A DNA stretch of 64,000 nucleotides from Pseudomonas sp. A34-9. GTDB lineage: Bacteria > Pseudomonadota > Gammaproteobacteria > Pseudomonadales > Pseudomonadaceae. A program made the position numbers and the translations under genes. Below, piece after piece: positions 6,086-9,796 of the stretch; positions within the stretch are counted from its first letter, which is position 1; every line of letters starts with the position of its first letter. The stretch is from assembly GCF_029543085.1 (NCBI RefSeq), contig NZ_CP119967.1, positions 6,145,001 through 6,209,000 on the forward strand, written 5' to 3'. The notes beneath the pieces were generated by a model. The model was given only the letters and a program-made list of their open reading frames with translations, was not told the origin of the DNA and did not search any database.

Positions 6086-6095
6086 TCCATGCGGA

Positions 6096-6127
6096 AAAAG
6101 GGGAGCCAGCAGGCTCCCCTTTTTTTT
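6096..6127 (+). terminator. Rho-independent terminator of rlmI
   Basis: A perfect 12-bp stem (AAAAGGGGAGCC with GGCTCCCCTTTT) has a 4-base loop and runs into eight T residues. It marks the left edge of the accessory island. Confidence 0.95.
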
Positions 6128-6299
6128 GGCGCGCCCCCCTTCCTCCCCGCTATTTCCCAATAATTCCTACAAGTACTTTCTCGCTGACGTGCAGGATATT
6201 TCCTTACGCCCTTTAATTATCGAAACTTGGCCTACAAGTTTATTCGCGACTAAAGACCACTCCGACAAAATTACTGGAAATTTCCTACTTAATATCCCC

Positions 6300-6328
6300 T
6301 TGCCAATAATCCATTACAAACTATTATG
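6300..6328 (+). promoter_or_regulatory. Candidate sigma-70 promoter of the SagB/AurF island
   Basis: TTGCCA at 6300-6305 is separated by 16-17 bases from TATTAT/ATTATG at 6322-6328, in a visibly AT-rich stretch. A hairpin (GTTG-TCACC, loop, GGTGA-bulge-CAAC, 6331-6355) follows just after the expected start point. The elements are close to consensus, but the start site is inferred. Confidence 0.55.
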
Positions 6329-6380
6329 AAGTTGTCACCACGAGGTGACTTCAACTTTAAATGAACAAGGAGTTCACATC

Positions 6381-6452
6381 ATGAAACGTATTTCTCTGGA
6401 AAGTAAAAAAATCGCAAACCTGGCTTTTCTGGTTGCCCCTAAAGCCCGCTAA
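6381..6452 (+). CDS. 23-residue peptide gene, candidate precursor peptide
   Basis: A short ORF encoding MKRISLESKKIANLAFLVAP followed by KAR. AAGGAG is 8 bases before the ATG, a likely promoter lies 50-80 bases upstream, and a hairpin follows the stop at once. The N-terminal part is basic and amphipathic (KRISLESKK), the centre is hydrophobic, and the end is a short Pro-Lys-Ala-Arg tail. It has two Ser and no Cys, Thr, Trp or Tyr. Its place before a SagB-type dehydrogenase, an AurF-like oxygenase and an exporter, and its separation from them by an attenuator, resemble the position of PqqA-like precursors. No homologue is known to me. It could instead be a regulatory leader peptide. Confidence 0.6.
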   Translation: MKRISLESKKIANLAFLVAPKAR

Positions 6453-6460
6453 GTAAGTCA

Positions 6461-6504
6461 GGACGCTGGGAACTGCCGGCAACCCGGCGTCCTTTTGACT
6501 TTTT
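6461..6504 (+). terminator. Attenuator or partial terminator between peptide ORF and sagB-like gene
   Basis: GGACGCTGGG (6461-6470) pairs with CCCGGCGTCC (6483-6492) across a 12-base loop, with one T-G wobble, followed by TTTTGACTTTTT. The interrupted T run suggests partial readthrough, which would leave the peptide message in excess over the downstream enzyme genes. Confidence 0.8.
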
Positions 6505-6523
6505 CCAGAGTGAATCGACAGAC

Positions 6524-7597
6524 ATGTACATCAACCCCTACTTATTTATATTGCCGCGCTCACCCGGGCAAATCGTGTGGAACTATAAAAACCACACACA
6601 GTACGAACTTGATCTGAATTATGCCAATCGACTTGCACAACTAATCCATAACCCGGGACTTTTCGACGCCCACAACATAATAGACACACAATTATTAAGC
6701 GCGGGCATTCTAACTGTTTCACAAATAGACAGTCCGCCATGGGGTTGGGATGAGCTGTCGAAGATTTATCACATCGGCACGCAAAATATTCCCTGCGAAC
6801 ATACCCCACAGAATATTCACGAATGGTCCAGACAATATCTGGCGCACTGCAACGAAGTACTGGCCACCCAACAGCCTGCTACAGATCGCCCGACGCCAGC
6901 ACCCGCGCAGCGTATCGCCCTGCCTGCGCCGTGCGCTTTGAATGACGACCGTCTGGGAAATGTTCTGCGGCAGCGCAAAACCTGCCGTTCCTATACAGGT
7001 GCAGCGATAACGCTGAAGGACGTCGGCACCCTGCTCTACCTCGCCCTCGGCTATCTCCAGGAACGTGACCATGACCGCGACGACAGCATCGCCCAAGGGC
7101 TCGGCGCACGCCGCAGCAGTCCTTCCGCTGGCGGCCTGAACGCTTGCGAAGGCTTTCTGCTGGTGCAGAACGTCGATGGCCTGGAACCCGGCATCTATGC
7201 CTATCATCCGGCCGAACACACCCTGAGCCGGGTCAATCCGCTGCCTGAACCGGCGCTCGGCCACTTGCTCGGCGGGCAGCATTTCATCAACAACCTGCCA
7301 TTGGGGTTGTTCATCACCGCCCGTTTCGACCGGCTCTGGTGGAAGTACGAACACTCGCGGGCCTATCGCATGGCTTTCGTCGAAGCCGGCCACCTGTCGC
7401 AGACCTTTCAACTGGTCGCCACGGCATTGGGCCTCAACACGTGGTTGACCGGCGCGTTTGCCGACCAGCAGGTCGAAGCACTCCTCAAGCTTGAGGGCAG
7501 TGCTGAACAACCGCTGTTCTTCGTTGGTTGCGGACAAAGCGACGGGCAAGTGATGTGTCACGAAATGCGCGAGCTGTTGCGCGAGGGGCAAGCATGA
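6524..7597 (+). CDS. SagB-type FMN-dependent dehydrogenase (nitroreductase fold)
   Basis: A 357-residue protein whose C-terminal 210 residues form a SagB/ThcOx-like nitroreductase domain. Landmarks are QRKTCRSYTG at 150-159 (FMN phosphate site), SPSAGGLNACE at 199-209, GIYAYHP at 223-229 and the MAFVEAGHLSQ helix at 283-293. The first 140 residues form a separate, more AT-rich domain ending in a Pro/Ala linker. SagB enzymes oxidise azolines to azoles in modified peptides, and relatives act in other oxidative tailoring steps. No YcaO cyclodehydratase is nearby and the adjacent peptide has no Cys or Thr, so ordinary azole formation is unlikely. It overlaps the next gene by 4 bases (ATGA). Confidence 0.85.
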   Translation: MYINPYLFILPRSPGQIVWNYKNHTQYELDLNYANRLAQLIHNPGLFDAHNIIDTQLLSAGILTVSQIDSPPWGWDELSKIYHIGTQNIPCEHTPQNIHEWSRQYLAHCNEVLATQQPATDRPTPAPAQRIALPAPCALNDDRLGNVLRQRKTCRSYTGAAITLKDVGTLLYLALGYLQERDHDRDDSIAQGLGARRSSPSAGGLNACEGFLLVQNVDGLEPGIYAYHPAEHTLSRVNPLPEPALGHLLGGQHFINNLPLGLFITARFDRLWWKYEHSRAYRMAFVEAGHLSQTFQLVATALGLNTWLTGAFADQQVEALLKLEGSAEQPLFFVGCGQSDGQVMCHEMRELLREGQA

Positions 7598-8571
7598 CGC
7601 TGTCGATTGCCGCCCCGGATGAAGCGCCGGTGTGCTGGGCACTCAAATTCACCTTGGGGGACTGGGACAGCCGTGCCTCGGTGCGTAGCAGTACCCACGA
7701 TTATCAATTGCCTGATGACGTGCCGCTGCAACTGCAAACCCGCCACTGGTTTCCACCGGCGTTTCTACCTTATCTGGCACACCCGGCTATCCAGGCGGCG
7801 GGGCGGGATGTGTTGCACCGACTGTCAGCCAATCACCTGGTGCACTTTCTCGATTACACCACCCTGCTCGAACACCGCATCGTCAACCGCGCCGTGGAAG
7901 TCATCGTGCACCACGAACTGCCCATTCACGTGCCTCTGGAAATGAAAAACGCCGCGCTGCAGCTCTACACCGACGAGGGTTATCACGCGTTGTTCTCCAA
8001 TCGCCTCGCAGAGCAGATCGCCGCGTTTTACGGGTTCACCGGACGTCCGGTGATTGCGAAGCGCGTCACCCGCATGAACGCTCTGATTACCCGCACCCCG
8101 GAAAAGAACCGGGCACTGGCATGGTTTCTGCTCGGTTTCGTCTCGGAAACCATCATTGCCCGGGAGCTGCTGGACGTTTGCCGCGACAGCCTGGTATCCA
8201 GCGTGAGCGACATGCTGCGCGACCACCTGACTGACGAAGCCCGCCACAGTCGCTACTTCAGCGAAGTGTTCCATTATCTCTGGCTGTCGATGAACAGCCG
8301 CCAGCGTACGTTTGTGAGCAGAACACTGCTGGAGATCATCGGGATTTTTTTCGAGGCCGACGAAGTCTGGCTGCAACAGAGCCTGCGAGGAGCCGGCATC
8401 GCCGACAGCGACGTGATGGACATCGTCGGCGGCATGGCAACGGTGCTGGCCAATCGTGCTCGTGCGCGATCAGGTTCCATCGCTACGCTCGACGCACTGC
8501 GCAAGGCGGGTTTTTTCGCACTTGCCCATAACCAGAAGCTTTTTGCCAAGGCAGGACTGATCGATGGATAA
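7594..8571 (+). CDS. AurF-like non-heme diiron oxygenase
   Basis: A 325-residue helical protein with the full ligand set of the p-aminobenzoate N-oxygenase family. Glu93 is followed 35 residues later by Glu128-x-x-His131 (DEGYH), then Glu185 (VSETII), then His211-x3-Glu215-x2-His218 (HLTDEARH). Order and spacing match AurF as I recall it, so it is probably active. Known members oxidise amines to hydroxylamine, nitroso or nitro groups; PvfB/MgoB relatives act on amino-acid-derived substrates. No NRPS is nearby here. The start overlaps the sagB-like gene by 4 bases and the stop overlaps the exporter by 8, so the three are translationally coupled. The substrate is unknown. Confidence 0.82.
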   Translation: MTLSIAAPDEAPVCWALKFTLGDWDSRASVRSSTHDYQLPDDVPLQLQTRHWFPPAFLPYLAHPAIQAAGRDVLHRLSANHLVHFLDYTTLLEHRIVNRAVEVIVHHELPIHVPLEMKNAALQLYTDEGYHALFSNRLAEQIAAFYGFTGRPVIAKRVTRMNALITRTPEKNRALAWFLLGFVSETIIARELLDVCRDSLVSSVSDMLRDHLTDEARHSRYFSEVFHYLWLSMNSRQRTFVSRTLLEIIGIFFEADEVWLQQSLRGAGIADSDVMDIVGGMATVLANRARARSGSIATLDALRKAGFFALAHNQKLFAKAGLIDG

Positions 8572-9796
8572 CGGACAATCCAAGACAACCACAAGACAGC
8601 GCCGCGCAGCTGTCAGCCTGTTGCTGGCCATGGTGCTGCTGGGCGTGTTTCCACTGGATGTTCTGCTTCCTTCATTTCCAGCACTCGCGGCGCACTTTCG
8701 CAGAACACCGGCAGACATCGCGCTGTCCATCAGCCTGTTCGCTGTGGGGATCGCGTTTGCTCAGGTGCTGATCGGCCCCCTCTCGGACGTGATCGGCCGC
8801 AAGGGCCTGTTACTCGCCGGCATGAGCGTATCGATGCTGGGTGCGCTCGGTTGCGTGATGACCTCCGATTACACGCTATTTCTCATATTCCGGGTGATGC
8901 AGGCCCTGGGATGTGGATGTTTCGTGCTGTCCCAGGCGCTGGTGCAGGATCTGTTCGAAGGTGAGGAACGCGACCGTTTGCGGATCCTGATGGTCACGGC
9001 CACCGGGATCTTCATCTCGGTGTCGCCGCTGGCCGGCACCTTTCTTCAGGCCTCACTCGGTTGGCGCGGCAGCTTCTGGGTGTTTACCGCGCTGGCCGCC
9101 ACGGTGCTGATCAAAGCCTGGCTGTTTTTACCAAACAGCCGTCCGGCCTACAGCGGCACACGGCTCGGTTTCATTCAGTCTTACCGCCGCGTGCTGGGGG
9201 ATTTCGAGTTTGTCGGCTACTGGCTGATTTCAGCGTTCGCTTTCGCCTGCCACTTCTCGTTCATCGTCATTTCGCCGCTGATTTTCATGGATCAATTGCA
9301 GCTCGCGCCCTACGATTTTTCACTGATCCTGCTGGTTTACGGTGCGGCCTATGTCGTCGGTGGCATCCTCGCCACCGTACTCAATCGACGGATCACTCCT
9401 CCCCAGCAAGTCTTCACCGGGCTAAGTCTGATACTGCTGTCGGGGCTAACGATGCTGTACCTGGCAGCCAATCACGGGTTGGCGCCAGCCACTGTGTTGA
9501 TCCCGATGTTGATCTGCACGGCGGGCACCACCATTGCCCGCCCCGCCGCCACCTCCCGGGCCATGGGCCTGTTTCCTGAAAACGCCGGGACCTCGGCCTC
9601 GGCGGGCAGCACGATCATCTTTATTTGTGGTGGGTTTATCAGCGCGTTGATCAGCCTCAGCCCAGCCAATCTGCAAACGACGCTCGGCTACAGCTTTGTG
9701 TTGCTGAGCGCGATAGCGCTGGTGCTCAACAACAGGCTCAGCCGCCGCGCCGCAAACGTTGAAGCCAATGCCGCTGTACAGGCCGACGGTGATTAA
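8564..9796 (+). CDS. MFS exporter, Bcr/CflA type
   Basis: A 410-residue inner-membrane protein with about 12 hydrophobic segments and the MFS loop motif GPLSDVIGRKG between helices 2 and 3. The RVMQALGCG helix is typical of Bcr/CflA drug-H+ antiporters (DHA1). It is the last gene of the three-gene overlap with the SagB- and AurF-like genes, so it most likely exports their product or protects the cell from it. The substrate cannot be predicted from sequence. It lacks a clear terminator; the branched inverted-repeat region starts at its stop codon. Confidence 0.9.
   Translation: MDNGQSKTTTRQRRAAVSLLLAMVLLGVFPLDVLLPSFPALAAHFRRTPADIALSISLFAVGIAFAQVLIGPLSDVIGRKGLLLAGMSVSMLGALGCVMTSDYTLFLIFRVMQALGCGCFVLSQALVQDLFEGEERDRLRILMVTATGIFISVSPLAGTFLQASLGWRGSFWVFTALAATVLIKAWLFLPNSRPAYSGTRLGFIQSYRRVLGDFEFVGYWLISAFAFACHFSFIVISPLIFMDQLQLAPYDFSLILLVYGAAYVVGGILATVLNRRITPPQQVFTGLSLILLSGLTMLYLAANHGLAPATVLIPMLICTAGTTIARPAATSRAMGLFPENAGTSASAGSTIIFICGGFISALISLSPANLQTTLGYSFVLLSAIALVLNNRLSRRAANVEANAAVQADGD

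Follow-up and report, generated by a model that had tools for sequence, protein, structure and literature searches.

A conserved 23-codon peptide gene beside SagB-type and AurF-type enzymes in Pseudomonas: a candidate RiPP-type pathway without its own YcaO

What purpose does a 23-codon open reading frame (ORF) serve directly in front of genes for two oxidative enzymes and an exporter? The question is raised by a stretch of 64,000 nt from Pseudomonas sp. A34-9 (NZ_CP119967.1, positions 6,145,001-6,209,000 of the forward strand; the whole of this stretch is called the window here), in which an island at 6300..9796 carries the ORF and, behind a hairpin, the genes for a SagB-type dehydrogenase, an AurF-type oxygenase and a Bcr/CflA-type protein of the major facilitator superfamily (MFS), in this order and with neighbours overlapping. 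The 23-residue ORF at 6381-6452 is a genuine gene, and the cassette is probably, with a likelihood that we put at roughly 0.6, a pathway of the RiPP type (ribosomally synthesized and post-translationally modified peptide) that has no YcaO of its own. Its four genes are:

6381..6452, + strand: 23-codon peptide gene, MKRISLESKKIANLAFLVAPKAR (81/81 loci with a SagB N-terminus; pN/pS, the ratio of nonsynonymous to synonymous polymorphism, 0.41; 104/398 genomes)
6524..7597, + strand: SagB-type flavin mononucleotide (FMN) dehydrogenase with an N-terminal domain of predicted RRE-like topology (RRE, RiPP recognition element), 357 residues (PF00881, TIGR03605 above cut-off, TIGR04511 below; AlphaFold2 model, VIA-align)
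7594..8571, + strand: AurF-type ferritin-like diiron oxygenase, 325 residues, overlapping the SagB gene (PF11583; 7 ligand positions 71/71; AurF 3chh the top PDB match of the profile)
8564..9796, + strand: predicted Bcr/CflA-type MFS exporter, 410 residues, overlapping the AurF gene (PF07690 over cut-off, TIGR00710 just under)

A scan of named genomes for the AurF-type protein, in which no peptide motif was used, gave 15 loci, all in Pseudomonas, and the peptide occupies the same place in every one of them (15/15). Together with 30 loci from a search of 398 Pseudomonas genomes and 40 further regions (38 of this AurF type, picked for diversity, and two distant AurF-type genes) they make up a set of 85 loci. 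The N-terminus of SagB is present in 81 of the 85, and a matching ORF lies 123-163 nt upstream in all 81, in 63 distinct sequences; the 81 include near-copies, and one of them, L016, is the window itself. The pattern that defines the ORF (L/M-E/Q at positions 6-7, N at 13) was partly drawn from the first finds, and the controls therefore matter: no locus failed the pattern, it occurs in 0/81 reverse complements and 1/810 shuffles, and across 1,260 pieces of the window its 7 matches are every one the true ORF. Over the 62 distinct sequences of 23 codons, pN/pS is 0.41 for the whole gene, falling from 0.49 in codons 2-15 to 0.30 in codons 16-23, and the conserved residues are written in several ways, A12 with four codons, N13 with two and L14 with five; selection on the peptide thus acts at the level of the protein. 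With only 23 codons the ORF might be taken for a relic, or for an accident of a conserved promoter region, and this reading is already contradicted by the 63 distinct sequences in 81 loci with their synonymous variation at conserved residues, by the two controls, and by the peptide's own profile, which finds it in 104/398 genomes, almost only alongside the enzymes.

The first-pass annotation had treated the peptide, both oxidative enzymes and the exporter as parts of one pathway, and had proposed searching genomes for the peptide upstream of AurF and SagB genes; the grouping holds in that search. Among the 398 Pseudomonas genomes, searched with a profile of 21 peptides alone and with the AurF-type gene called at E 2.6e-38 or better, the peptide is found in 104, the AurF-type gene in 103 and both in 102, so that 102/103 genomes with the enzyme have the peptide and only 2/398 have the peptide without it, both with decayed operons. 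As the genomes are interrelated, counts are given instead of a probability. The three exceptions to co-occurrence are all decayed operons: in G031 a fragment of AurF is left and both SagB and the peptide are gone; in G158 the peptide and the MFS gene survive beside 123 residues of SagB; in G307 the tail of the peptide is altered and AurF is reduced to a remnant, with the MFS gene kept. The MFS reading frame in these three has 0.92-0.97 of the reference length, which would fit a retained gene for self-protection; this is a hint only, because the MFS gene is broken in L145 (a second copy in G188) and shortened in L078. In L060, with its frameshifted SagB, the peptide no longer has a ribosome site and carries Q in place of E7. 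The decayed cassettes L142, L143 and L080, from three genomes, have an open MFS frame and little or nothing left of SagB and AurF, as if the pump had been retained for protection.

The cassette also moves as a unit. In a SagB tree of 43 rows, 34 stand at the rlmI-ilvD site (with both flanks in each) and 9 elsewhere; its well-supported branches require the location to have changed at least three times, with the cassette whole each time, in a tree for which the program warned of long branches among divergent rows. Two complete cassettes with different peptides coexist in G052. One relocated cassette (L056, 6263-13245) lies near a gene that we take, from the start of its protein, to be glmS-like, and might reflect a known insertion hot spot.

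Of the Pseudomonas species sampled, roughly one in four has the cassette (103/398), and no complete cassette was seen outside Pseudomonas in searches of the class, the phylum and the order. The class search (SagB profile, 1e-20) gave 23/369 genomes, of which all except the own genome match only part of the profile (query start at 48 or later); the phylum search (AurF profile) gave 6/398, all Pseudomonas; the order search gave 3/145 including the own genome, and in the other two no SagB turned up, either as a match in the first loci or on visual inspection of the ORFs in the wider ones. With the AurF-type protein of L064 as query, plasmids gave 7 records, all at less than 60% identity, and among the protein matches (the best 120 of 417, the best 120 of 361, and 80 of 80) each one named to genus is Pseudomonas. 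In another family of the same order, L124 (2649-11700) has an AurF-type gene near an MFS gene and an ORF of 2381 residues, with no SagB seen among the listed ORFs.

Which part of the peptide is common to the family can be read from the 71 intact systems, that is, the 81 loci minus four that are damaged (L060, L072, L078, L081) and six that fail a length rule (L025, L037, L054, L068, L079, L085). M1, E7, A12 and N13 are invariant in 71/71; I/V at position 4, L/M at 6 and I/L at 11 are likewise found in all 71, K2 in 68 and L14 in 66, and positions 3, 5, 8 and 9 vary freely. The alternation at positions 3-6 is what a strand packed against a sheet might show. Over all 81 loci the counts are 81 for N13, 80 for E7 (L060 has Gln), 80 for A12 (L068 has Glu) and 78 for K2. 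The family ranges from 21 to 26 residues, with the same length in 69/81; the distance from N13 to the stop is 8-13 residues, and the C-terminal residue is Lys or Arg in 78/81. The tail, LVAPKAR-like and well kept among near relatives (the pN/pS of 0.30 above), differs in sequence and length between subfamilies, and since its codons are more constrained than those of the front, it varies between subfamilies rather than freely.

This distribution bears on the chemistry. N-oxidation of Lys or Arg by the AurF-type enzyme, as suggested at first, is disfavored because no Lys or Arg is invariant: K2 is found in 68, K10 in 56 and Arg in column 23 in 59 of the 71, against the fully conserved E7, A12 and N13; Lys/Arg was rejected as a universal AurF site. 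The remark that the peptide lacks Cys and Thr for azole formation holds for the window's peptide, which has two Ser and neither of the others, and fails for its relatives, in which Cys and Thr both occur; no column of the 71 peptides is invariant for Cys, Ser or Thr.

The catalytic positions of both enzymes are intact. The SagB-type protein scores 126.8 bits with TIGR03605, the SagB family peptide dehydrogenase domain (cut-off 78.4); its top NCBIfam match is TIGR04511, at 166.7 bits below the cut-off of 240 and only from profile position 149. A Lys-Tyr pair of SagB is invariant in the 71 intact systems. In VIA-align, the AlphaFold2 model aligns with ThcOx and BmdC over residues 1-341 and with McbC over 21-340; the predicted fold resembles that of oxidases of RiPPs and non-ribosomal peptides with RRE-like N-terminal domains. 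The AurF-type protein matches PF11583 at 73.5 bits (gathering cut-off 29.6), and the seven positions of its diiron ligands (3-His/4-carboxylate) are invariant in 71/71. The exporter scores 189.6 bits with TIGR00710, just under the curated cut-off of 200.9, and matches MFS_1 (PF07690) over its cut-off.

The statement that there is no YcaO is correct for the cassette and has to be corrected for the genome. In a YcaO family scan that covered the window's cassette and 10 cassette genomes, YcaO was found elsewhere in the own genome (G000:C1:3699550-3700557, in a frame of 736 codons about 2.4 Mb from the cassette) and in 9/10 of the genomes, with a much weaker match in G010 (89 bits). G181 has no YcaO at E 1e-5 despite open SagB, AurF and MFS genes and a peptide (L063), and the cassette can therefore exist without one. 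Azole formation was rejected as the chemistry of the cassette: the window's cassette has no YcaO and the peptides no invariant Cys, Ser or Thr, though a YcaO lies elsewhere in 9/10 genomes.

A RiPP-type pathway would then proceed as follows. A ribosomal peptide of 21-26 residues would be made from a hairpin-bounded message; its front (IxLE...KIAN), which holds the sole family-wide invariants, would plausibly bind to the RRE-like domain of SagB, the flavoenzyme; both SagB and the diiron enzyme of AurF type would oxidize residues in or after this front segment, with N13 and its neighbors the likeliest site; cellular peptidases would then release a modified peptide or a small product, to be exported by the Bcr/CflA-type pump. 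A variant, favored because the pump is of a drug type, makes the peptide a ribosomal scaffold: SagB and an AurF-type N-oxygenase would act on E7...N13, a small oxidized metabolite, possibly containing an N-O bond, would be carved out and the rest discarded, and the MFS protein would export it and protect its maker. We regard this variant as tentative, at well under even chances; it would link AurF-type chemistry with a gene-encoded peptide, a pairing that none of the papers found in the literature searches reports. In either form the compact four-part system would represent a new route of peptide oxidation and could yield a new class of Pseudomonas metabolite, and since the peptide is short enough for chemical synthesis and has many natural variants, its chemistry is directly testable.

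Several points weigh against a RiPP-type pathway. Residues 1-90 of SagB have no match to 27 PqqD sequences in a profile-profile comparison with hhalign (27 of 30 loci, three short ones dropped; the controls behave alike save for one AurF piece, at probability 16), and a Pfam scan of 10 SagB N-terminal pieces shows no RRE family; an RRE recognizable by sequence was rejected on both. The match to ThcOx starts at residue 117, inside the second clamp domain, which its authors judge unlikely to be active, and the RRE-like domain of BmdC is likely a relic according to its own (PMC5108345 and PMC8795117, respectively). A read-through fusion of peptide and SagB, modeled in AlphaFold2 and without a scrambled control, leaves the peptide unplaced (predicted local distance difference test, pLDDT, about 30). 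The N-terminal domain, with 87 of 250 columns, accounts for 22 of the top 100 pairs in peptide-SagB covariation and so shows no enrichment, and the correlation of SagB and peptide distances, r 0.857, may reflect shared descent only. In the 62 genes of 23 codons it is codons 16-23, rather than 2-15, that are the more constrained. Finally, the operon has neither a protease nor a typical peptide exporter, and a distant YcaO partner is conceivable for most cassette genomes, 9/10 of those scanned having a YcaO. With no PqqD similarity, no docking, no enriched covariation and a constrained tail, the RRE step is therefore no more than plausible.

The missing contact also bears on whether the peptide is a working micro-protein instead, be it a subunit bound to SagB or AurF or a membrane-active peptide, with the enzymes acting on another substrate. 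Strict co-occurrence and co-mobility suit a subunit as well as a substrate, and the SagB fold list includes a nitroreductase-fold enzyme of small molecules, AlbAB (8uc3), a cyclodipeptide oxidase that dehydrogenates small cyclic dipeptides (PMC11055893). Against a micro-protein, the peptide's own strong ribosome site and the hairpin behind it would fit excess production, and the model of the fusion places no contact between peptide and SagB, which counts as much against a substrate. We judge the micro-protein improbable.

The message itself has a distinctive layout; the promoter, AAGGAG and hairpin named by the first-pass annotation are all present, as are the ORF and the three overlapping genes. 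Its elements are:

6300..6327, + strand: sigma-70-like promoter, TTGCCA-16-TATTAT (consensus scan, 10/12 matches)
6332..6349, + strand: 5' inverted repeat GTCACC-N4-GGTGAC, an operator or 5' mRNA hairpin, a few bases 3' of the -10 box
6367..6372, + strand: Shine-Dalgarno sequence AAGGAG (from the sequence; aligned among relatives)
6461..6492, + strand: conserved hairpin between the peptide and SagB genes, terminator-like or an RNA-processing element (covariation; GCCGGC in 66/76 unique 3' regions)

The promoter scan gave 2 promoter-like sites in the scanned region, for 0.9 expected from shuffles; the region aligns in 16 sequences, in which the hexamers vary. A repeat of the form GTCRC-N3-7-GYGRC is found in 56/72 unique 5' regions and in 0/72 shuffles, with an inner pair that is A/T in 39, G/C in 13 and other in 4, the changes being mostly paired. 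In the own genome the window's repeat has one exact match, at its own place, and one with 3 mismatches, for 4 matches of a reversed-pattern control; the repeat is near-unique there, and the cassette has no regulator gene. The 3' hairpin starts mostly 5-16 nt past the stop codon of the peptide. On 25 alignable sequences, chosen by us from 75, 98.0% of its cells are paired, with both-sided changes in 8/10 pairs (39.6-55.2% paired in slid controls), and a stem of at least 8 pairs is found in 66/76 unique 3' regions and 11/76 shuffles. The loop (window 6475-6480) keeps GCCGGC in 66/76 while the stem varies freely. At least 5 T in the 8 bases after the stem occur in only 13/66 hairpin-bearing unique regions, so that an intrinsic terminator was rejected as a universal feature; of the hairpin attenuator first proposed, a conserved and covarying hairpin is confirmed and attenuation is unproven. 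With a hairpin on either side of the ORF, the peptide may have a message that is stable or that ends separately.

This layout is also what makes a regulatory leader the main rival: stalling or release of the ribosome on the ORF would control the hairpin and with it the enzymes, which would act on a free small molecule. A short ORF followed closely by a covarying hairpin, enzyme genes behind that hairpin, a pump of drug-efflux type, the tight constraint on the last eight codons of the 23-codon group and the uniform length of 69/81 peptides would all be expected of it. Known stalling peptides, however, are most conserved near their C-terminal stall site, whereas here no family-wide invariant lies beyond position 13 and anywhere from 8 to 13 residues separate N13 from the stop; the T-run of a Rho-independent terminator is limited to the 13/66; and a leader leaves the likeness of SagB to peptide oxidases unexplained. 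A leader of this kind is thus unlikely in our estimate.

Around the cassette, the window has an rlmI-like gene for a 23S rRNA methyltransferase (it falls short of the curated cut-off in each NCBIfam model matched) and ilvD (above its cut-off), and between them only the peptide, SagB, AurF and MFS genes. The description as an AT-rich island applies to the first half kilobase, where the G+C fraction is 0.437 (6086-6380), 0.417 (peptide gene) and 0.485 (SagB codons 1-130); it does not extend to the AurF and MFS genes, at 0.593-0.596 against 0.603 for the whole window.

How does the cassette relate to systems already described? No published account of it was found in the literature searched, most subscription papers being outside reach, nor any report there of an AurF-type oxygenase and SagB acting jointly on a ribosomal peptide or of an AurF-type oxygenase combined with a peptide of 21-26 residues. 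The putative peptide-modification cassettes TIGR04510/TIGR04511 of NCBIfam likewise include a dehydrogenase related to SagB, whose name refers to putative peptide maturation; here the protein lies below the TIGR04511 cut-off with its N-terminal part unmatched, and an AurF-type enzyme stands in place of the TIGR04510 cyclase. A TIGR04510 cyclase lies near a TIGR04511 SagB, a putative peptide-modification pair, in L126, L127 and L129, which belong to three genomes of two further families in the class. As with PqqA of the pyrroloquinoline quinone (PQQ) pathway and the pearlin-type ribosomal scaffolds, a very short ribosomal peptide with few invariant residues, together with an exporter of small molecules, would suit a product cut out of the peptide or assembled on it; the genes of the cassette include no radical S-adenosylmethionine enzyme, PqqC or tRNA-dependent ligase.

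The TOMM class (thiazole/oxazole-modified microcins) and other azol(in)e RiPPs are defined by a YcaO in the operon and by core Cys, Ser or Thr, both of which differ here as described. ThcOx (cyanobactin oxidase), McbC and BmdC (bacillamide oxidase) share the nitroreductase fold and FMN, and ThcOx and BmdC have peptide-clamp or RRE-like N-terminal domains (PMC5108345, PMC8795117); they oxidize azolines supplied by a cyclodehydratase or a non-ribosomal peptide synthetase, whereas the cassette has a gene for neither. With the arylamine N-oxygenases AurF and CmlI, for which 3-His/4-carboxylate ligands are stated (PMC13108848), the oxygenase shares PF11583 and the invariant ligand set, at a score far below the cut-off of the 4-aminobenzoate N-oxygenase model (56.8 vs 620 bits). 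The OS3 cluster of Pseudomonas sp. Os17 is alike in genus, small precursor and SagB-type dehydrogenase; its authors did not find homologs of sagA, sagC and sagD (PMC7726476), and it differs in its precursor of 85 residues, its acetyltransferase, its HEXXH-type protein, its SagB of 650 residues and its transporter, and none of its four genes is of the AurF type. Small precursors accompanied by SagB-type dehydrogenases are thus known already, OS3 being one case in Pseudomonas, and the cassette has what RiPP systems have in general, the gene of a short ribosomal precursor in linkage with tailoring enzymes, in 81/81 loci and 102/103 genomes.

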